Shown here: positions 3,047-12,892 of the stretch, one piece after another | Position numbering within the stretch: the first letter of the stretch is position 1 | Layout: the number at the start of each line of letters is the position of its first letter | Origin: a bacterium | Lineage (GTDB): Bacteria; Vulcanimicrobiota; JABDET01 | Direction: 5' to 3' | Assembly: GCA_021817145.1 (NCBI GenBank) | Contig: JAKAVV010000004.1 | Location: forward strand, 1 to 64,000 | DNA length: 64,000 bases | Translations under genes and position numbers: made by a program | Notes under the pieces: generated by a model | Told to the model about the DNA's origin: nothing | The model's input: the letters and a program-made list of their open reading frames with translations, nothing else | Database searches by the model: none

Positions 3047-3814
3047 TCAGCTGTCTCTTTTTTCTTCGAGGCGGCCTAAAAGACGAAGAAGACCATCTAA
3101 AATAGTCAGAGGATGAGGAGGACACCCGGGAATATACAGATCCACAGGAATATCTTTGGGGACTCCATCCTGAGAATCCTCTGCCCCTGCAAAGGGCCCT
3201 CCACTGACAGCGCAGGCTCCAACAGCAATCACAATTTTAGGAGAAGGAACTGCTTCATAAGTTTTACGTAAAGCTGTCTCCATATTATTGGTTACAGGTC
3301 CAGTCACAACAATTCCATCAGCATGGCGAGGGGATGCCACAAATTGAATTCCGAAACGACTTAAATCAAAAATCACATTCCCTGCTGCTGCCAGTTCTGC
3401 TTCGCATCCACTGCAGCCCCCTGCGCATACTTGGCGAAGTTTTAAAGAACGGCCAAAAACCCGCAGCATCTTATCATCCATCTCGGAAGCCAATCTTAAT
3501 TCTTCCCCTGAAACCATTAAATCGTTTCTAGAACGAACTGCCAGCCTGTAATCAGATGTAAAGGCAATCGCTTTATCAGGGCATTTTTCCTGACAGAGAG
3601 GGCAAAACAGGCATGCCCCTAAATCAAGCTTAAGAGGATTAAGAGTAATAGCCTGAGTGGGACAGATATCTCTGCAAGAGGAACACCCCTCCTGACATCG
3701 AGAAGGATCAAGAACAGGCTTCCCTCGAAATCTCTCAGGCAGATGAACTTCTCCTTTGGGAAAGTCAGAGGTTCGATATCCTTGATGCAGACGTGTTTTC
3801 AAAAGATCAAACAT
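3047..3814 (-). CDS. Hydrogenase-related small subunit fused to a 2x[4Fe-4S] ferredoxin domain (HyfH-HyfI-like)
   Basis: A 255-residue fusion. Residues 40-78 carry two 4Fe-4S motifs (C40-x3-C44-x2-C47-x3-C51 and C68-x2-C71-x2-C74-x3-C78), as in HycF/HyfH. The rest is a NuoB/HyfI-type small subunit with CAGGCSGCE at 130-138, then GACAVSGGP and PGCPPHP, so the ligands of the proximal (N2-like) cluster are kept. In group 4 hydrogenases this subunit passes electrons between ferredoxin and the NiFe site. Here it partners a large subunit without NiFe ligands, so it probably transfers electrons to or from another acceptor. It is the last gene of the operon. In E. coli Hyf the two parts are separate genes. 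Confidence 0.9.
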   Translation of the reverse strand: MFDLLKTRLHQGYRTSDFPKGEVHLPERFRGKPVLDPSRCQEGCSSCRDICPTQAITLNPLKLDLGACLFCPLCQEKCPDKAIAFTSDYRLAVRSRNDLMVSGEELRLASEMDDKMLRVFGRSLKLRQVCAGGCSGCEAELAAAGNVIFDLSRFGIQFVASPRHADGIVVTGPVTNNMETALRKTYEAVPSPKIVIAVGACAVSGGPFAGAEDSQDGVPKDIPVDLYIPGCPPHPLTILDGLLRLLGRLEEKRDS

Positions 3815-3823
3815 GCTCCTCCT

Positions 3824-5323
3824 TCATAAATCATGCCCTGCGTACGAAAAATTAAAGCTTTTATTGCACAATGGAAAATCTGAAATCTGACTGCCGCGCA
3901 GCGCAGCAGCAAGCCCAAACCAGTTGTGAAAAGAAGGATCCACAATTTTATACCCCGCGATTTCCCCCTTTGAAGAAGTAACAGCCAGATGAAAAATCTC
4001 CCCTCTCCAGCCTTCTACCATAGAAACAGCTGCATAATCAGATCGACTGGATCGAATCTCTACTTGAAGCGCAGTTTCTGGAAGTCCATTAAGCTGTTCT
4101 CGAAGAAATCTAAGAGAGCGCTGAATTTCAAGCCAGCGGAGCAGAGCGCGAGCCATCACATCCCCTGAATCCACAAAAGCTGCAGGGATCTGAACAAAAC
4201 GAAAAATGCCAAAAGGATGATCCCTTCTCACATCTCTATCACAGCCGCTGGCTCTTGCAGCAGGTCCAACCATTCCTAATGTATCAGCGGTCTCATTCGT
4301 TAAAATCCCTGTTTCTTCAAACCTTGAATAAACAGTTGGAGTGTTAAAGGTAAGATCTGCCGTTTCTTTGAGGTCTTGTTCAATCTTCTCAAGTCGAATT
4401 AAAAAATCTTTTATTTGAGAGGATGAAAAGCCAAATCTCACCCCTCCTGGTCTAATCAGACTTCTTCCAAAGCGATTCCCCGACAACTCCATCAGCATGT
4501 TTAAGAACTCCCCTCGAATCCGGCCAAACCAGGAGGCTCCTGGGAGATATCCCGCATCCCCGCACAGAGCTCCAAGATCTCCTGTATGATTGGCTAACCT
4601 TTCCAATTCAAGGGCAGCGCCTCTAACAAGATGAGCATAAAAAGGTGGATCGCAGTCAGACAAAGCTTCAATCCCCATACAGTACGCAAGGGCATGTCCA
4701 ACAGCAGTGTCCCCTGCGATAGACTCCGCGATCACCAGTCTTCGTTCAGGAGAAGATCTGAGAAAAAGAGATTCAGCCCCTCTGTGCTGATACCCTAATT
4801 GAATTTCCAGATAATGGATCATTTCACCATAACACTGAAAACGAAAGTGCCCTGGCTCAATAATTCCTGCATGAACAGGTCCAACAGCAACTTCATGAAT
4901 TCCTTCCCCTTCCACGCGAAAAAAGGGGTAAGAATCCATTTTTCTGCGTAGAGGTTTAAGCCAGGGATGACCCTCAGGAATAATTCCATGCTCCTCAAAT
5001 AATTCTCTTTCAAAATTTTGGGCTTGAGGCAGATCCAGAGAAAGGGATGGATAAGAATTATTTCCGCCTAAAACAGAAAAGAGCAGCCCAACTTTAGATC
5101 CTGCATCATCCGCAAAAACAGCAAGGATCGTTTTTGCTTCTTTCGTTCTGCTGAACCCAGGGAAAGAACAAAGGGCTGCCAAACGGCTGCCAGAATGAGC
5201 AAGATAAAGACAGTTTTGGCGAAAATCAATTGGAGAATACTGAGGAATTTCTGCCAGTGGAACAGCTTCCCCATTTCTGATCCAGACAGCGCAGGATAAA
5301 AACTCTTGCGAATCTATTTTCAT
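3824..5323 (-). CDS. Hydrogenase-related large subunit (NuoC-NuoD / HyfG-like) lacking NiFe cysteines
   Basis: A 499-residue NuoC-NuoD fusion of the HycE/HyfG kind. Where true NiFe hydrogenases have RxCGxC near the middle, this protein reads E200-S-I-A-G-D-T-A-V-G-H210. Where they have DPCxxC at the end, it reads SDFPLCNKSFNFSYAGHDL (481-499). All but one of the four metal-binding cysteines are therefore missing and no NiFe centre is expected. This matches the 'energy-converting hydrogenase related' (Ehr) complexes described in comparative studies of complex I relatives. There is no C-terminal maturation-protease extension, which fits. No hydrogenase maturation (hyp) genes are visible in the window. 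Its start overlaps the stop of the next upstream gene. Confidence 0.9.
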   Translation of the reverse strand: MKIDSQEFLSCAVWIRNGEAVPLAEIPQYSPIDFRQNCLYLAHSGSRLAALCSFPGFSRTKEAKTILAVFADDAGSKVGLLFSVLGGNNSYPSLSLDLPQAQNFERELFEEHGIIPEGHPWLKPLRRKMDSYPFFRVEGEGIHEVAVGPVHAGIIEPGHFRFQCYGEMIHYLEIQLGYQHRGAESLFLRSSPERRLVIAESIAGDTAVGHALAYCMGIEALSDCDPPFYAHLVRGAALELERLANHTGDLGALCGDAGYLPGASWFGRIRGEFLNMLMELSGNRFGRSLIRPGGVRFGFSSSQIKDFLIRLEKIEQDLKETADLTFNTPTVYSRFEETGILTNETADTLGMVGPAARASGCDRDVRRDHPFGIFRFVQIPAAFVDSGDVMARALLRWLEIQRSLRFLREQLNGLPETALQVEIRSSRSDYAAVSMVEGWRGEIFHLAVTSSKGEIAGYKIVDPSFHNWFGLAAALRGSQISDFPLCNKSFNFSYAGHDL

Positions 5324-6801
5324 CCTTTTCCTCCCAGAATGCTCGATGCCTTTTCCAGGACTTCACGGAAAGGATAAGGCATCCATATCCCTAAAATTAA
5401 AAGCAGGGCAAGGGGGAAGAAAACAATGAGGATATCAAAAATCTTGCTTTTTTCAGAGACCAAAGAATAAGGAGGTTCCCCCCAGGCTGTTGAAAGGGCA
5501 TGTGAAAGGACTCCTACAAATACAATCCCTGCTGCTGCGAGGAAAAAACTCAAAATCAAGATCTGATTGTGATCCACAGCTGTTTTAATGATCAGCATTT
5601 CACTCATAAAAATAGCAAAAGGGGCTGCCCCAACCAGAGCAAGAAAAATTAAAAATAATCCACTCCCCCATACAGGAGCGCGTCGAATTGTCCCCTTCAT
5701 CTTTCTCATATCATGAGTGCCATAAATCTGATCCAATTTCCCCGCTGATAGAAAACCGGTTGTTTTGCAAACCGAGTGATTGAAGATATGAAACAATGCC
5801 GCAAAAATTCCAAGACCTCCAAGCCCTAATCCAATGGCAGTGATCCCGAGATGTTCCACACTAGAATAAGCGAGCAGTCTTTTTATGTCATGCTGAAACA
5901 AAATGAAGACTGCTGCAGTCAGCATGGATATAACTCCAAACAGCAGCAGTAAATGACCAGCAAAATTAAATTGAGCAGCTGCATTCACAATCGGAATATA
6001 GCGCATAATACAGTAAAGAGCAGCATTCAACATAAACCCTGAAAATAAAGCGGAAACAGGGGCAGGAGCCTGGCTGTGAGCATCTGGGAGCCAATTGTGA
6101 AGAGGAGCCAGTCCTGCTTTTGTGCCATATCCCACCAGTAGAAAAACAAAGGCAATCTTCATGGTCAGTGGATTCAATTTTGACGCATTTTGATAAAGAA
6201 CTGTCCACATCAATCCATTCCCATGGAAAATCGAAACACTGCTGGCAGCCGCCCCTACCAGTAAAGTTCCTAAAAAGGCGAGGGCAATTCCAACAGAACA
6301 AAGGAGCACATATTTCCAGGTTGCCTCTAAAGAAGTTTGGGAACGATGAATACAAATAAGAAAAGCGGTAATAAGAGTAGTTGCTTCTATTCCCACCCAC
6401 ATCAACCCCAAATTGTTTGATAATAAAACCAGAGACATAGCCCCTAATGATCCAAACCAGAGGGAACCAAATCGAGCAGCATGACTCTCCTTAAAATCGC
6501 CGCTCTCAATCTCTTTTCCAAAATAGCGGTAAGCAAAGATCGAGGAAAGCGAAAAGACAAGCAGCATAACAAGGATATGATAACCTGACAAAGCATCAAT
6601 TCGAAGCCAGTCATCTGCTGTATGGAGAGGCGATCCTGTAAAAACAGGGTAAATCAAAAATCCCCCTGCCAAATCCTCTGCTAAAACTCCGACAGTAGTA
6701 AAAGCAAGCACAAGTTTTGGTTTGCGCAGAAACAAACACAAAATCGATCCAAGGACAGGAAGCAGAAGAAAAATCCAGAGCAGCAGAGAATCCATTTTCA
6801 T
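5320..6801 (-). CDS. Antiporter-like membrane subunit, NuoN/HyfF-like
   Basis: A 493-residue polytopic membrane protein with about 14 hydrophobic segments. It carries the proton-pumping antiporter signature of complex I subunits: a Lys within GYGTKAGLAPLHNWLPDAHSQA and the following helix HDIKRLLAYSSVEHLGI, with conserved Lys and His. By family knowledge, such subunits move H+ or Na+ coupled to electron transfer in the soluble arm. Length and gene position, between HyfE-like and HyfG-like genes, fit HyfF. Overlaps at both ends with neighbouring genes show strict operon coupling. Confidence 0.9.
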   Translation of the reverse strand: MKMDSLLLWIFLLLPVLGSILCLFLRKPKLVLAFTTVGVLAEDLAGGFLIYPVFTGSPLHTADDWLRIDALSGYHILVMLLVFSLSSIFAYRYFGKEIESGDFKESHAARFGSLWFGSLGAMSLVLLSNNLGLMWVGIEATTLITAFLICIHRSQTSLEATWKYVLLCSVGIALAFLGTLLVGAAASSVSIFHGNGLMWTVLYQNASKLNPLTMKIAFVFLLVGYGTKAGLAPLHNWLPDAHSQAPAPVSALFSGFMLNAALYCIMRYIPIVNAAAQFNFAGHLLLLFGVISMLTAAVFILFQHDIKRLLAYSSVEHLGITAIGLGLGGLGIFAALFHIFNHSVCKTTGFLSAGKLDQIYGTHDMRKMKGTIRRAPVWGSGLFLIFLALVGAAPFAIFMSEMLIIKTAVDHNQILILSFFLAAAGIVFVGVLSHALSTAWGEPPYSLVSEKSKIFDILIVFFPLALLLILGIWMPYPFREVLEKASSILGGKG

Positions 6802-7454
6802 CCTTTTAATTCATCCAAACGGTTCACATCAATGTGATCAAATTGGCGGCTGATGTGATTGATAGCAATCCCCATTACCAGAACACCAACCAGAAGATCC
6901 AGAAGGATCCCCAATTCTACAATAAAAGGAAGCTCTTTAAAAAGGATCTGCCCAAAAATAAAGATTCCATTCTCAAGAATCAAATAACCAACAACCTGTG
7001 TAATCGCTTTTTGTCTGCTAACCAGCAGTAAAAATCCAACCAAAACCCCGACAAAAGCCGCTGGAACAATCAAGGACGCTGGAGGAGACTGTGGAAAAAC
7101 AACAATACTTGCCATCCAGAACGATCCCGCGACAAAAACAGCTGCTGTAAAAAGAGAGAAATGGAGACTGATAGAAGGCTCCACTTCACGACGAACATTT
7201 GCCTCACGGATGGAGCGGAAAATCAAAAATGGAATCAGTAAACTTTTCACGACAAAAGTCCCTGCGCCGATTAAGAGCAAGCCGATCATTTCGCCGCTTG
7301 AAGCCTGTTTCCACCAGAGAGCAAAAGGCAGAAAAGCAAGAGCAGCTCCTTGAAGAGCAGTCGCATTCACACAAGTATCCAATCTACTGGAAGAAACAAT
7401 GTAGAGATCCAGAACAATCACAATCAAAAGGATAAAATTAGCGTCCTGAATCAT
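6798..7454 (-). CDS. HyfE-like membrane subunit
   Basis: A 218-residue membrane protein with about six or seven hydrophobic segments, beginning MIQDANFILLIVIVLDLYIV and ending in a soluble tail. Size and position match HyfE, the subunit in Hyf-type complexes that resembles NuoK in its C-terminal half (VVGYLILENGIFIFGQIL is NuoK-like, with a buried Glu). It likely forms part of the ion path between the NuoH-like and antiporter-like subunits. It overlaps both neighbours by four bases. No hyfD-like gene is present, so the complex has two large antiporter-type subunits rather than three. Confidence 0.88.
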   Translation of the reverse strand: MIQDANFILLIVIVLDLYIVSSSRLDTCVNATALQGAALAFLPFALWWKQASSGEMIGLLLIGAGTFVVKSLLIPFLIFRSIREANVRREVEPSISLHFSLFTAAVFVAGSFWMASIVVFPQSPPASLIVPAAFVGVLVGFLLLVSRQKAITQVVGYLILENGIFIFGQILFKELPFIVELGILLDLLVGVLVMGIAINHISRQFDHIDVNRLDELKG

Positions 7455-8386
7455 GGAGCCCCTTTATAAAAAGAAAGGATCAACCCAAGGACAGCAAGGA
7501 TAGAAGCTCCAATCAAAAACTGGGGAACCCGAGAAAGCCGAATTCTAGCTACTGCGCTCTCAACCAGAGCCACCAAAATCCCCACTCCAAACACACCAAT
7601 GAACAAATAGAATATTCCAAAATACCAATTGGTTGAGGGTAAGGGGAGAAGAAGATGAACTAAAAGAACAGCCTGCAAGAAAAACTTAAGCGAACTCCCA
7701 TAAAGGATAAACGCTAAATCCGGACCCCCATGATCCAGAACCATCACTTCATGAATCATGGTAAGCTCAAGATGAGTATTGGGATCATCTACAGGAATGC
7801 GGGAATTTTCAGCCAACAGCACAGCAAAAAGCGCAAGAGCAGCTACTAAATAAACCGGATGGGCAAATCCCCAGGTTGCCCAGGGAAGAGCATGAAATAC
7901 ATCTTTAAACGTTACACTTTTTGCGTGAATGCAGAGGATCGCCAGGGATAAGAAAAAAGCAGGTTCAGAAAAAGCTGAAAAAGCTGCCCCTCTGCTAGCT
8001 CCCATTCCTTCAAAGCTGGAGCCGGTATCAAGCGCTGAAAGCAGAATAAAAAAATGTCCAAACGCTAAAAGATACGCAAAAAGGATAATATCCCCTTTAA
8101 ACCCTAAAGGGGAGGAAGATAGGGCTAAAGGCAGAATGAAGCCTGCGCAGAAAATACTGGCTAAAGAGATGATTGGACCTGCTGTAAAAATCCACGTTGC
8201 TGTACGACTGTACACTTCCCCCTTTTTTAGAAGTTTCCAAAGATCGAAATAAAACTGAAAAAGAGGAGCCCCTTTTCTGCCTGCTGCCCATGCTTTCATT
8301 TTATTGATAATTCCGATGAAAAGGGGTGGAACAAAAAGAAGGATCGCGATTTGCTCGATTATTTCTAAAATCACCTCAATATCCAC
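7451..8386 (-). CDS. NuoH / HyfC-like membrane subunit
   Basis: A 311-residue protein of the NuoH family with about eight membrane segments. Typical elements are RKGAPLFQFYFDLWKLLKKG after the first helix and the carboxylate-rich loop ENSRIPVDDPNTHLELTMIHE, which in complex I relatives lies at the junction between the redox arm and the membrane arm. It anchors the small and large subunits to the membrane. It overlaps the upstream HyfB-like gene by 11 bases and the HyfE-like gene by four, keeping the classic hyfB-C-E-F-G-I order minus hyfD. Confidence 0.92.
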   Translation of the reverse strand: MDIEVILEIIEQIAILLFVPPLFIGIINKMKAWAAGRKGAPLFQFYFDLWKLLKKGEVYSRTATWIFTAGPIISLASIFCAGFILPLALSSSPLGFKGDIILFAYLLAFGHFFILLSALDTGSSFEGMGASRGAAFSAFSEPAFFLSLAILCIHAKSVTFKDVFHALPWATWGFAHPVYLVAALALFAVLLAENSRIPVDDPNTHLELTMIHEVMVLDHGGPDLAFILYGSSLKFFLQAVLLVHLLLPLPSTNWYFGIFYLFIGVFGVGILVALVESAVARIRLSRVPQFLIGASILAVLGLILSFYKGAP

Positions 8387-10367
8387 CCTTGATAAGAACC
8401 CAAATCAATAAAGCGGCAAAAGTTGCGGCAATATAAAGGAGATAAAGCTGAAGCCGTCCCTGCTGAATGATCCGAAACTGAGAAAGAATTTTCACCACAC
8501 GGCGAATTCCTGGCAGCAGCCATTTTTCAGAAGCAATATCCCCCAGATGTTTTTCATAATGCGCCTTTTCAGGAAAATAACCAAGAGGAGTTTTCTGATG
8601 TTTAATGCGTGAATAGATCAAAGGGGCAAAAGGAGCCAGAACAGGTTCTGCAAAAGAAGCCGCAGTGTACTGCATTCTAGGATTATAAGCAGGATAACCA
8701 CAGCTCCAGGTTTCGCTCTTTTCCACTTTACGATTCCGCAGCAGTCCTCTGCGCAGCAGGTAAAAAAGCCCAATCAAAATAAATAACACTGCCGCGGCAT
8801 AAGTAATCATCAGCAGTGAATTCACAGCAGGTTCTGCTGCAGTAAAACTCCCCCCAAAAAAATCCGCCGCAGGAGCTGTCAGATAAATCATCTCTATCGG
8901 AAAAACTCCAATCACAAAACACAGAACAGCGCCAATGATCATTGGGATCACCATAAAGATATTTGATTCATGGGCATGAGTCGTTTTTTCTGTTCGGGGG
9001 TTCCCCAGAAAAATAATCCCAAAAGCTTTAACAAAACAGGTCACAGCAAGCCCGCCAATTAAAGCCAGGGCAGGCACAATGGCAAGAGCAAATAATCCCC
9101 ATAAGGTTGGAAAATAAAAAGATCCTTGAAAAGCCCCTCTGTAAATCAAATACTCACTGATAAAACCATTGAAAGGGGGCAGCCCGCAAATCGCCGCTGA
9201 TCCAATTAAAAAAGAGGTTCCTGTCATCGGCATAAAGCGATAAAGCCCTCCAAGAGCATCCAAATTCCTTGTTCCTGTGGAATGCTGCACGCTTCCTGCC
9301 CCATGGAATAAAAGCCCTTTAAAAAGCCCGTGATTTAAAACATGAAGAAGGGCTCCAGAATATCCCAAAAAAATAATCATAGGATTGGCAAGGCTTTGAC
9401 CTAAAAGCCCTAATCCAATCCCAAGAGCAATAATACCGATATTTTCAACACTGTGGTAAGCCAGGAGCCTTTTTAGATCATGTTCTGTAAGAGCATGCAG
9501 CACTCCCAGCACCCCTGAAACAATCCCAATTCCGATAATCAATCCACCCCACCAGGAAGGAGGAGTTCCAAAAAACAAAAGAGTGCGAAGAAGACCATAA
9601 ATCCCCATTTTAATCATGACTCCTGACATCACAGCAGAAACAGGGCTTGGAGCAGCTGGATGGGCTTCAGGCAGCCAGATATGAACAGGCCAGAAACCCG
9701 CTTTTGTCCCAAACCCAACAAGCGCCAACAGAAAACAGGTATTTGCCAATCCCGGCATCTTTAAACTTGACATTTGAAAAGTATTAAAATCAAAACTTCC
9801 TGAGACGCGGCTCAAAAGAGTGAATAAAACGAATAAAAACACAACCCCTGCTTGAGAAGCCATTAAATAAAGGACCCCTGCTTTTACTACCTCTTTCCGT
9901 TCATTTTCAAAAGTAACCAGGAAAAAAGAGGAAAGAGACATGATCTCCCAAGCAGCAAGAAATAATATCCCGTTTCTAGCAATCACAACCCCTACCATGG
10001 ATGCCACTAAAAAGCTGAAGAAAAAAACAGGGGATAAAAGCCATTTTTTCCCTTGATAATGGATAAAATATCCCTTTCCATAAAGGGCAGATAATCCGGA
10101 AACCAAAAAAATACACACGAGAAAAAAAGAAGAAAGCGGATCCAGACCAATCGCAATTTTCCCTATAGGTAAAGACCAGGGGATTTTAAGAAAGATTTGT
10201 TCTCCTGATACTAGAGCAAACAAAGAGGCTGAAACTCCAAGAACACAAGCAAACAGATTTCCAAAAGTTCCAATTCCAAGGATCATCCTCTCCCTGTGCC
10301 CCGCAAAAAGCGCTGCCAAAGGGGTGGCGCAGAGAATCATCAAGGAACCTAAAATCGCATAAAGCAT
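8376..10367 (-). CDS. NuoL/HyfB-like antiporter subunit
   Basis: A 663-residue polytopic protein with more than 14 membrane segments. The antiporter core includes FGTKAGFWPVHIWLPEAHPAAP and HDLKRLLAYHSVENIGI, with conserved Lys and His residues, and NHGLFKGLLFHGAGSV follows. A C-terminal extension after residue about 560 has a soluble stretch (KVEKSETWSCGYP) and a final helix, as in HyfB. The role is ion translocation. It is the first membrane gene of the operon and starts one base after the stop of the HTH-EIIA gene, so the two are co-transcribed. Confidence 0.92.
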   Translation of the reverse strand: MLYAILGSLMILCATPLAALFAGHRERMILGIGTFGNLFACVLGVSASLFALVSGEQIFLKIPWSLPIGKIAIGLDPLSSFFLVCIFLVSGLSALYGKGYFIHYQGKKWLLSPVFFFSFLVASMVGVVIARNGILFLAAWEIMSLSSFFLVTFENERKEVVKAGVLYLMASQAGVVFLFVLFTLLSRVSGSFDFNTFQMSSLKMPGLANTCFLLALVGFGTKAGFWPVHIWLPEAHPAAPSPVSAVMSGVMIKMGIYGLLRTLLFFGTPPSWWGGLIIGIGIVSGVLGVLHALTEHDLKRLLAYHSVENIGIIALGIGLGLLGQSLANPMIIFLGYSGALLHVLNHGLFKGLLFHGAGSVQHSTGTRNLDALGGLYRFMPMTGTSFLIGSAAICGLPPFNGFISEYLIYRGAFQGSFYFPTLWGLFALAIVPALALIGGLAVTCFVKAFGIIFLGNPRTEKTTHAHESNIFMVIPMIIGAVLCFVIGVFPIEMIYLTAPAADFFGGSFTAAEPAVNSLLMITYAAAVLFILIGLFYLLRRGLLRNRKVEKSETWSCGYPAYNPRMQYTAASFAEPVLAPFAPLIYSRIKHQKTPLGYFPEKAHYEKHLGDIASEKWLLPGIRRVVKILSQFRIIQQGRLQLYLLYIAATFAALLIWVLIKGGY

Positions 10368-11036
10368 TTATCTGCTCATTTCCATCACAGAAATCCGATC
10401 TAAAATCGCTTCACGCGGAGCCCCCATCAAAACCAAATCTTTCAATAGAGAATCAGACAATAAAATGGTTAAAAAAGCCACGATTTGAAAATGGATGCGC
10501 GTAGATGGGGAGAACAGCAGAAAAAAAACTTGAACAGGAAGAGTGTCAGTCAGGGAAAAATCAATAGGACTTTTAAGGCAGCACAACAGTAAAACAGGCT
10601 CTTCAATTGGAAGCAGAATAGGAAATCGCGGATGAGGAATGGCAATTCCATCTATAAAATGAAGAAAAGGGATTGAACTATCTCTTGTTAAGAGTTGAAT
10701 CAAAAACTCGGGATCCATTTCAGAAGGAATTCCCGAAAACCTTGCAGCAGCTTCTGCCACTTCTTCTTTCACAGCTCCTGGGACCTCATAAAAGATCCCT
10801 CCTCTTTTAAGCGCAGAAGAGATTTTAAGAATTCTTTTTTCCTGTTCATGAAGATTGAACAACTTATCCGATACAGAATAATGATGGAGAACAGCCCATT
10901 CCAGCAAATCAATCCGATTTAACCAGTACTGTTCATGAACACGATAAGCAGAAAGAGAACCTTTTTGAATCCAGCGGTAAAGAAGGTTTTCAGAAACCTT
11001 CAGCAGCTCTGCGGCATCACGAACACTCAAATCCAT
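10368..11036 (-). CDS. HTH (excisionase/MerR-like) plus PTS EIIA-like fusion protein; probable regulator of the Ehr-type operon
   Basis: A 222-residue, two-domain protein. Residues 1-45 form a helix-turn-helix of the excisionase/MerR kind (LSVRDAAELLKVSENLLYRWIQKG). Residues about 85-220 resemble PtsN/fructose-type EIIA and keep the phosphorylatable His in GIAIPHPR (H135). EIIA(Ntr) proteins report PEP and nitrogen status; joined to a DNA-binding domain, the protein could switch transcription with PTS phosphorylation. It is the first gene of the hydrogenase-related operon and is preceded by the shared promoter element at 11058-11103. Control of that promoter by this protein is inference. No PTS transporter genes lie in the window. 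Confidence 0.8.
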   Translation of the reverse strand: MDLSVRDAAELLKVSENLLYRWIQKGSLSAYRVHEQYWLNRIDLLEWAVLHHYSVSDKLFNLHEQEKRILKISSALKRGGIFYEVPGAVKEEVAEAAARFSGIPSEMDPEFLIQLLTRDSSIPFLHFIDGIAIPHPRFPILLPIEEPVLLLCCLKSPIDFSLTDTLPVQVFFLLFSPSTRIHFQIVAFLTILLSDSLLKDLVLMGAPREAILDRISVMEMSR

Positions 11037-11157: not shown

Positions 11158-12246
11158 ATGGATGTGAAAAGTTTTGTCTCTTGGTTTAAAAAACTGGATA
11201 CAGCCCGAAAAATCTTTCTCGCAAATCTGTTCATCATTCTATTCTGGTGCTCTTTAGTTTTTTTAGGGATGAGAGGACTTCCCTTAACTCATACTCAGTG
11301 GGTTATTCTGGTTCTTTTATTTGCGGTGGGAGCGCTCTGGTTAACCTCCTGGTTTGTAACCATGGCTCTTGCCCCTTTACGTTCCTTATCACACGCAATG
11401 GATCGAGTGGCAAAAGGGGACTTAACCTTTCGGGCATCAAACCATCCTGCTGCAGGACCTCTGGTTAATCTCTGCGTCAGTTCATTGAACCAAATGTTAG
11501 ACGTGCTGGATAAAGAACGACAAAAATCTCGACTGCTTTCTGAACGGCTGATCTTTGCTCAAGAAGAAGAGCGAAGGAGAATTGCCAGGGATCTGCATGA
11601 TGAAACCATGCAGGGATTGACAACCCTTCGCATGCAGATCGAAGAGGTGGAGATCTTAATGGCAGCAGGTCTAACTCCACTTAATCTTAAAGCTTGCAAA
11701 ACAACCCTTTCCAACTTAAAACAAGTGGCTGATCAAGAGCTGAAAGAGCTGAGGCATCTGGTCTTCAATCTCCGCCCGATGCTCTTGGATGATATGGGAT
11801 TAAAACAAGCTCTTCTTTCTCTTTTTAGAGAAGAACTCGGAAAAAATGGAATTCGAACCGATTTCTCCATTGAAGGAACTGAAGTCCAACTTTCTGATGC
11901 AATCGAAGTAGCTCTTTACCGTCTTTCACAAGAGATCATCGCCAATATCCTGAAACACGCAAAAGCCACAAAAGTTTCTGTGAATTTATCGTTTCAGCCC
12001 AATGGAATTAAACTGGTGGTTCAAGACAATGGAATTGGATTTAATGCGGCTGCAGCCAGGATAAACAATCAAGGAATGGGGCTTTTAGGAATGGCTGAAA
12101 GGGCATCTCTTTTGTCAGGAACATTTGAAATTCAATCCTCTCCAAACAGAGGAACAAAAGTGGAGAGCTTTTTTCCTACAGCAGCATTCTCCTCACACAC
12201 TGATCCTCCTGGATCCGATTCTCTAAAGAATAAAATTTATGATTAA
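11158..12246 (+). CDS. DesK/NarX-type membrane sensor histidine kinase
   Basis: A 362-residue kinase. Two membrane helices (about 17-37 and 46-68) enclose almost no periplasmic loop, so the signal is likely sensed in the membrane or cytoplasm. A HAMP domain follows (about 70-120). The HisKA_3 dimerisation domain has the phosphoacceptor His in EEERRRIARDLHDE (about residue 147), and the ATPase domain has an N box (SQEIIANILKHAKA), DNGIGF and GMGLLGMAERA. It overlaps the response regulator by eight bases. It is transcribed divergently from the hydrogenase-related operon, which is a plausible target. Confidence 0.9.
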   Translation: MDVKSFVSWFKKLDTARKIFLANLFIILFWCSLVFLGMRGLPLTHTQWVILVLLFAVGALWLTSWFVTMALAPLRSLSHAMDRVAKGDLTFRASNHPAAGPLVNLCVSSLNQMLDVLDKERQKSRLLSERLIFAQEEERRRIARDLHDETMQGLTTLRMQIEEVEILMAAGLTPLNLKACKTTLSNLKQVADQELKELRHLVFNLRPMLLDDMGLKQALLSLFREELGKNGIRTDFSIEGTEVQLSDAIEVALYRLSQEIIANILKHAKATKVSVNLSFQPNGIKLVVQDNGIGFNAAAARINNQGMGLLGMAERASLLSGTFEIQSSPNRGTKVESFFPTAAFSSHTDPPGSDSLKNKIYD

Positions 12247-12892
12247 ACTCTTACTGGCTGATGATCACACCATTCTGAGAGAAGGGCTTGAAAGCCTTTT
12301 ATCCTTGAACTCCGAACTTTCAGTGATAGGAAAAGCTTCCAATGGGGAAGAAGCCGTCGAGCTGGCAGGAAAACTGAAGCCAGATGTGATTCTCATGGAT
12401 ATCGGAATGCCTGTTCTAAATGGATTGAAAGCCACACGAAAAATCAAAGATCTCTATCCTGAGGTTAAAATTTTAATTCTAACCCAATATGAATCAGAGT
12501 ATTATTTTTTTTCATCCCTGCAGGCGGGAAGTTCGGGATACATCTTAAAAGGAACAAACGTTGCCGAACTTATTTCCGCTGTAACAACAATTCACGAAGG
12601 GCAAATCTATTTTTCCCCTGTATTGACTCAAACCATTTTAAAAAACTTCGTTTTAGGGGACAAACTGACTGCCACTCAAGGAACATTGAGCCCACGAGAG
12701 CTGGAAGTATTGAAGCTGCTGGCAGATGGGTGCTCCAACCAAGAGATTGCGGATCAATTGTTTGTTTCTGTTAAAACTGTCCAGACCCACCGCTATCATC
12801 TCATGGAAAAGCTGAATTTGCACAGCAGAACAGAACTAGTAAAATACGCAATTCGCGAAGGAATCTTAATTTTGGAAGATTCGGAGAGATAA
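12239..12892 (+). CDS. NarL/FixJ-type response regulator
   Basis: A 217-residue protein with an N-terminal receiver domain (acidic DD near residue 9, phosphoacceptor Asp in VILMDIGMP near residue 54, Lys in KGTN near 105) and a C-terminal LuxR-type HTH (LSPRELEVLKLLADGCSNQEIA, then VKTVQTHRYHLMEKLN). It is cotranscribed with the sensor kinase by overlap. LuxR-type regulators bind inverted repeats, often near -40, so it is one candidate for binding the ATCAG-N8-CTGAT element beside it. That link is inference. Confidence 0.92.
   Translation: MIKLLLADDHTILREGLESLLSLNSELSVIGKASNGEEAVELAGKLKPDVILMDIGMPVLNGLKATRKIKDLYPEVKILILTQYESEYYFFSSLQAGSSGYILKGTNVAELISAVTTIHEGQIYFSPVLTQTILKNFVLGDKLTATQGTLSPRELEVLKLLADGCSNQEIADQLFVSVKTVQTHRYHLMEKLNLHSRTELVKYAIREGILILEDSER

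Follow-up and report, generated by a model that had tools for sequence, protein, structure and literature searches.

An Ehr-type complex of the Vulcanimicrobiota with a former [NiFe] site that looks rebuilt rather than decayed

The stretch of DNA analysed here (positions 1 to 64,000 of contig JAKAVV010000004.1, assembly GCA_021817145.1, from a member of the Vulcanimicrobiota; hereafter, the window) carries on its minus strand a seven-gene operon (11036–3047) that encodes a membrane complex related to group 4 [NiFe] hydrogenases and to complex I. Judged by its sequence, this operon is a member of the known and widespread Ehr family, and the former active site of its large subunit looks to be under strict constraint, rebuilt rather than decayed. 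Ehr complexes are defined by a large subunit that is related to group 4 hydrogenases and lacks the NiFe-coordinating cysteines (PMC6349859; PMC3569383); the literature already describes these complexes, their want of a NiFe site and how little is known of their partners (PMC6349859; PMC10284858; PMC3569383; PMC5037454; PMC7894505). As far as our literature searches reach, three things presented below are new: the table of site residues, the conservation of the regulator gene and a second cysteine-less complex in the genome.

Replacement of the NiFe ligands in the large subunit

In an alignment with Escherichia coli HycE, whose NiFe ligands are C241, C244, C531 and C534, the large subunit of the window (HyfG) has A203, T206, S493 and G496 at the respective positions and retains none of the four cysteines of group 4 [NiFe] hydrogenases. 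The absence of the CxxC pairs had been noted in a preliminary description made from the sequence alone, which also named two outcomes that would speak against it, a placement among cysteine-bearing hydrogenases combined with a sequencing error at these motifs, and a second gene supplying a cysteine-bearing subunit; neither was found. Equivalent replacements recur in the same-genus relative G001 and in 80 loci spread over many phyla, which rules out a sequencing error. The genome that carries the window (G000; 2.66 Mb, 97% complete, 42 contigs) has three genes of the PF00346 family, coding for the complex I subunit NuoD (contig C1), the window HyfG and a second cysteine-less protein (contig C26), and searches of this genome with the PF00346 and PF00374 profiles revealed no cysteine-bearing group 4 subunit encoded by another gene. 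The single PF00374 match above the cut-off is a soluble [NiFe] hydrogenase on contig C15, which we take to be of the group 3b type from its gene make-up. Its operon (L011, 2385–11830) is adjoined by hypF-, hypD- and hypE-like genes, named from their translations. Such hyp-like genes were considered as a pointer to a hidden NiFe site in the window complex and rejected, as they adjoin the soluble hydrogenase.

For comparison of the site residues, 162 distinct large-subunit rows were aligned with the window protein, HycE and HyfG, and sorted into classes by the ligand columns. After removal of a duplicate of the window, there were 112 rows of the class that includes the window (Ehr1), 13 HydNK, 14 Ehr2, 10 Ehr3, 10 NuoD and 5 other cysteine-bearing rows. 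HydNK denotes group 4 hydrogenases from the same phylum that have the cysteines and the tail PLVNKSFNLCYAC. Ehr1 is the class that was left over after sorting, so that it was not selected by the residues under discussion. The window site consists of A203, G204, D205 and T206, together with the segment from C486 to G496. The residues are listed below in the numbering of the window HyfG.

Table 1. Residues of the former active site
H159 and R161: 112/112 Ehr1; R (13/13) and T (13/13) in HydNK
A203 (first ligand column): A 97, S 13, C 1 and T 1 of 112 Ehr1
D205: 112/112 Ehr1; G 5, S 4, A 3 and N 1 in HydNK
C486: 110/112 Ehr1; V in 13/13 HydNK
N487, K488, S489 and Y494: invariant in Ehr1; also in 12–13 of 13 HydNK
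S493 and G496: 111/112 and 112/112 Ehr1
C495: 91/112 Ehr1; Ala in the window
E156, H246, E399, R357 and R440 (HycE E193, H284, E437, R395 and R478): each 112/112 Ehr1
Asn at the column of the HycE canopy Asp529: 110/112 Ehr1; 13/13 HydNK

The HydNK proteins have the NKSFN stretch and the Asn of the canopy in common with Ehr1 but keep all four cysteines (13/13) and lack D205 and C486. N487, K488, S489 and Y494 are probably ancestral, going by their distribution, and the invariance of NKSFN, once considered as a mark of the new site, was dropped because the cysteine-bearing HydNK sisters have it as well. The five HycE residues listed with their Ehr1 counterparts belong to the path of substrate protons in formate hydrogenlyase (FHL), according to a structural study (PMC9474812).

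An AlphaFold2 model of the window HyfG, built as a single chain from 40 rows, had a mean predicted local distance difference test score (pLDDT) of 85.4 and a predicted template modelling score (pTM) of 0.90. Its best match among solved folds was HycE of FHL (7z0s_E; Z 41.5, 478 residues, 26% identity), followed by subunits of complex I (Z 37–38).

Phylogeny and distribution of the complex

A tree of 76 large-subunit rows, with relatives from Anaeromyxobacter, Desulfobacterota and others among them, was calculated after removal of the motif columns and united the 30 sampled Ehr1 rows, including the window, in a single group (97/81). Within this group, the window protein is joined by that of the same-genus relative (100/99) and then by those of L013 and L014 (Myxococcales and Eisenbacteria; 100/99). 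Ehr1 adjoins the cysteine-bearing HydNK (bootstrap 96) and Ehr2 adjoins Ehr3 (95), and all four stand apart from HycE/HyfG, the other group 4 rows and NuoD (100). The phylogenetic check proposed in the preliminary description thus places the window inside Ehr1 and outside the cysteine-bearing clades, and the assignment to Ehr is upheld by this placement, by the cysteine-less large subunit and by the Hyf-type membrane arm. The best tree requires two losses of the cysteines, although a single loss, with Ehr1, Ehr2 and Ehr3 in one clade, was not rejected by the approximately unbiased test (p 0.344).

When 84,980 species genomes were scanned for the large subunit, 281 relatives came to light; the 80 best (47–71% identical) were kept. 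Going by the record titles, they come from Myxococcota (including Anaeromyxobacter), Acidobacteria, Planctomycetota, 'Deltaproteobacteria', Elusimicrobia, Omnitrophota, Lentisphaerae, Verrucomicrobia, Sumerlaeota, Hydrogenedentes, Krumholzibacteriota, Bipolaricaulota and others. In an RpoB tree, the lineage of the window was separate from the Omnitrophota and Elusimicrobiota rows, but several rows (L082, the two G030 rows and the clade around them) probably came from open frames in the wrong frame, so that we rely on one result of this tree, the identity of the G001 row with that of 'bacterium isolate FK4.bin95'.

Organization of the operon

All seven genes lie on the minus strand and neighbours either overlap or sit a few bases apart. 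The complex itself (HyfB-C-E-F-G and ferredoxin-HyfI) is encoded at 10367–3047, and the Pfam and NCBIfam matches bear out the reported series of NuoL-, NuoH-, HyfE-, NuoN-, HyfG- and HyfI-like genes in Hyf order. The span given for the complex in the preliminary description (3047–11036) was too long by the first gene, an unmentioned regulator-like protein that is not a subunit.

Table 2. Genes of the operon
10368–11036, minus strand: regulator-like protein with HTH_17 (PF12728, E 2.2e-9) and PTS_EIIA_2 (PF00359, E 1.1e-12) domains; first gene of the operon
8376–10367, minus strand: HyfB/NuoL-like antiporter-type subunit, EhrA (PF00361, E 2.1e-55; NCBIfam hydrogenase 4 subunit B, 604 bits)
7451–8386, minus strand: HyfC/NuoH-like membrane anchor, EhrB (PF00146, E 1.4e-31)
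6798–7454, minus strand: HyfE-like membrane subunit, EhrC (NCBIfam hydrogenase 4 membrane subunit, E 6.7e-24, under its cut-off; position kept in relatives)
5320–6801, minus strand: HyfF/NuoN-like antiporter-type subunit, EhrD (PF00361, E 8.7e-52)
3824–5323, minus strand: cysteine-less large subunit EhrL (HyfG, NuoC-NuoD-like), 499 amino acids (PF00346, E 7.6e-36)
3047–3814, minus strand: EhrS, a 2x[4Fe-4S] ferredoxin domain (Fer4_7, 22.8 bits, under its cut-off) fused to a HyfI/NuoB-like small subunit (PF01058, E 1.4e-32)

With its cysteine-less large subunit, its small subunit and its Mrp/NuoL-, NuoH- and HyfE-like membrane subunits, the window has the full make-up of an Ehr complex. Wherever a locus leaves room behind HyfG (78 loci), the ferredoxin domain and the small subunit form one protein. 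The HyfB-like gene is duplicated in only 6 of 64 loci, two antiporter-like subunits being the norm; the names EhrA-1 and EhrA-2 imply such a pair in Geobacter as well (PMC7894505; PMC13194489). The fusion and the gene order are therefore a rule of the family, and the suggestion that the fusion and the missing hyfD mark a compact variant has to be abandoned.

The residues expected of an electron-transferring ion pump are largely retained. Each of the eight cysteines of the ferredoxin domain is kept in 72–77 of 76–79 rows, and the ligands of the N2-type cluster in the small subunit, C134, C137, C201 and C231, in 78 of 79 rows each. Two of these, C134 and C137, had been correctly recognized earlier; C201 and C231 complete the set. 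C130, the third residue proposed at the time, is not a ligand: 72 of the 79 rows have Ser there, four have Cys and three have Ala. In the membrane arm, E141, K222, K253 and E405 of HyfB (61/61 rows), D120, E141, E193, E207 and E213 of HyfC (69/69) and E139, K228 and K346 of HyfF (72/72) are invariant, and E401 of HyfF is found in 68 of 72 rows. The genome encodes a KorA/B-like pair (2-oxoacid:ferredoxin-type oxidoreductase), and a profile search of it, at 97% completeness, found no NuoF/RnfC/HoxF-type domain (PF01512). The proposal that the complex couples ferredoxin to ion transport agrees with these observations and should still be read as a prediction.

No gene family beside the 80 operons recurs in more than 16 loci, and those 16 are generic response regulators; accordingly, genes for a formate dehydrogenase (FDH) or NuoE/F partner are not a regular feature next to the operon. 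This differs from the FDH–Ehr pairing that one study proposes for Margulisbacteria (PMC6349859).

In the window, a divergent pair of genes for a HisKA_3 sensor kinase and a LuxR-type response regulator (11158–12892) lies directly upstream of the operon. Just downstream of it (2051–2991), there are genes for a RES-domain protein and an Xre/MbcA/ParS-type antitoxin, likely a toxin–antitoxin system. A promoter scan was uninformative (13 promoter-like sites vs 12.4 expected).

The HTH–EIIA regulator

The regulator gene precedes HyfB in 54 of the 63 loci scored as having room for it. Eight of the nine misses are contig ends at which the 'HyfB' match is really HyfF, which brings the count to 54 of 55, with L013 as the sole exception. 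The EIIA-type P134-H135 is invariant in the 56 regulator rows and H182 is present in 55 of them; both histidines are putative phospho-acceptors. PTS enzyme I is apparently absent from the genome, where the single PF02896 match is a 933-amino-acid frame that looks from its sequence like pyruvate phosphate dikinase.

Among 148 genomes of the phylum, ten have the regulator, six of them together with Ehr1 (G000, G001, G028, G030, G034 and G036) and four without it (G016, G032, G038 and G050); in three genomes with an Ehr1-type gene (G035, G040 and G046) there was no regulator match at E 1e-6. In the four genomes that lack Ehr1, the regulator homologue precedes DabA (PF10070; G050, with the EIIA His replaced by Gln), SulP (G032), an amino-acid permease (G016, where the homologue also lies divergent to SulP) or histidine kinases (G038).

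Table 3. Regulator-homologue loci without Ehr1
L244, 3882–7573; L243, 3505–5912; L242, 11622–15681: neighbours DabA, SulP and amino-acid permease

A tie between the regulator and the ion or inorganic-carbon state of the cell is a lead only. A literature search for HTH–EIIA regulators returned nothing related, judged by titles.

Comparison with known systems and other cysteine-less complexes

The Ehr complex of Geobacter sulfurreducens (GSU0739-45; EhrA-1, A-2, B, C, D, L and S), matched to the window by its published subunit list only, likewise has NuoL-like, HyfE-like, large and small subunits and no NiFe site, but has two EhrA subunits where the window has one HyfB-like subunit (PMC7894505; PMC13194489). 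E. coli FHL and Hyd-4 (HycE, HyfG) provide the closest solved fold and the gene order hyfB-C-E-F-G-H-I; unlike the window, they have the four cysteines and separate HyfH and HyfI, and Hyd-4 includes HyfA, HyfD, HyfJ and HyfR. The HydNK small subunits also differ from those of Ehr1 in that no ferredoxin domain was seen in L100–L103 and L105–L109. Complex I, represented in the same genome by the NuoD locus on contig C1, has the fold and the membrane arm in common with the window complex. At that locus (L007, 4837–9142), a glutaminyl-tRNA synthetase-like gene sits between nuoD and nuoH.

The second cysteine-less complex of the genome, Ehr2 (L006, contig C26, 671–7931), has the same subunit types as the window complex but another gene order (C-E-F-G-I-B), a small subunit without the ferredoxin domain and no regulator gene. 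This small subunit keeps the CxxC and two further cysteines, and the operon has no visible electron entry besides the N2-type cluster. The second C-terminal ligand position of the Ehr2 large subunit is Glu, as in NuoD, in all 13 rows with a tail. Of the 149 genomes from this phylum, 13, this one counted, have Ehr2 relatives at no less than 43% identity, and a sample of 148 genomes from the phylum of L046 contributed one Ehr2 row (L227). A third cysteine-less type, Ehr3 (10 rows; L185, L186, L194 and L195 among the loci), has the tail FTDFSFIEHSF and sometimes shares a genome with Ehr2 (G021 and G104).

A proposed mechanism and its alternatives

The reading that we favour, with a confidence only slightly short of even, is that the Ehr complex is a redox-driven ion pump of the complex I superfamily, ferredoxin-linked and with a rebuilt, non-metal electron exit. 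Reduced ferredoxin would dock on the fused 2x[4Fe-4S] domain and pass electrons to the N2-type cluster, whose four ligands are in place. The cluster would hand them on to the former NiFe pocket of HyfG, in which the metal ligands have given way to the family's own invariant residues. An acceptor would be reduced in this pocket, with protons supplied through the retained E156/H246/R357/E399/R440 path, if its role is the same as in the FHL structure. The resulting charge movement would drive HyfC, HyfE, HyfF and HyfB, which have the requisite ion-pathway residues, to move H+ or Na+, and the HTH–EIIA-like protein would set the expression of the operon. A soluble ferredoxin as the donor and the quinone pool as the acceptor is the simplest reading. 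A membrane quinone, bound differently than in complex I, is our best guess for the acceptor, though it is a tentative one that we put somewhat below an even chance.

Several observations weigh against this interpretation. In Ehr1, column 204 is Gly in 111 of 112 rows; all ten NuoD rows have there a Tyr, a quinone contact in the 49-kDa subunit of complex I. The window likewise lacks the other quinone contact of complex I, a His: column 155 is Ile in 112 of 112 Ehr1 rows and His in 10 of 10 NuoD rows. That His has a proton-donating role in complex I, according to the structural study (PMC9474812). Its residues thus set the pocket of Ehr1 apart both from a NiFe site and from a quinone site of the complex I type. 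The AlphaFold2 model does not help here, as the site loops (149–157 and 485–499) have pLDDT values below 50 and the partner subunits are absent from the model, so that no pocket can be read from it. Two UbiA family genes are present in the genome, but UbiA is found in 14 of 14 control genomes as well as in 51 of 52 Ehr1 genomes and does not discriminate. The activity of the complex is a prediction from its genes, and the complex could also run backwards.

In such reverse operation, an ion gradient would push electrons from quinol or another donor to ferredoxin and thereby feed ferredoxin-dependent carboxylations or 2-oxoacid synthesis. The genome encodes heme-copper oxidases (three strong matches, one weak) beside the KorA/B-like enzyme and lacks PF01512, and all G. 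sulfurreducens Ehr subunits were more abundant on formate than in hydrogen-containing conditions, according to one report (PMC7894505). The presence of DabA or SulP next to the regulator homologue in three of the four relatives without Ehr1 gives a weak hint of inorganic-carbon control. However, the regulator's other neighbours include the amino-acid permease and histidine kinases; on balance, we regard reversal as unlikely, if well worth considering. The membrane-bound sulfane reductase (MBS), which partly retains the CxxC and reduces sulfur, suggests by analogy that the rebuilt pocket might reduce a small non-quinone acceptor such as a sulfur species, possibly with the participation of C486. 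The missing complex I quinone residues, the near-invariance of C486 and the frequent C495 beside the site all agree with this idea, and MBS, which PMC9474812 mentions, is a precedent for a relative with an altered site. In our alignment, the first ligand column has Cys in MbsL (6u8y_L) and in one of the 112 Ehr1 rows. Still, C486 is replaced in two of 112 rows, the window has Ala at 495, and no sulfur-related or other family recurs beside the operon, response regulators excepted; we judge such an acceptor quite improbable. A paper from 2026 calls the Geobacter Ehr nonfunctional for want of a NiFe centre (PMC13194489), and all four ligands are indeed gone. The strict constraint on the site residues, which stay invariant although the 112 distinct sequences come from many phyla, speaks against a hydrogenase relic, and the operon is conserved and its cluster and pump residues are intact, which a relic would hardly have kept; we consider this explanation extremely improbable.

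Beyond the ferredoxin-linked pump with a rebuilt exit that we favour, there is a bolder proposal, which we hold to be on the unlikely side. Ehr1 would then give the complex I superfamily a third type of electron exit, a protein-only pocket (D205, C486, S493 and H159) that has kept the proton path of the hydrogenases and exchanges electrons between ferredoxin and some acceptor, in either direction, under a dedicated HTH–EIIA-like regulator whose signal may be inorganic carbon or the ion state.

The residue table argues against treating Ehr complexes as dead hydrogenases and recasts the problem of what replaced the NiFe site as one for point mutants (D205, C486, S493 and E156). If the acceptor is not a quinone, the family would have a new coupling chemistry, and if the complex runs backwards, it may be a source of reduced ferredoxin in the anaerobes and nitrifiers that carry Ehr.

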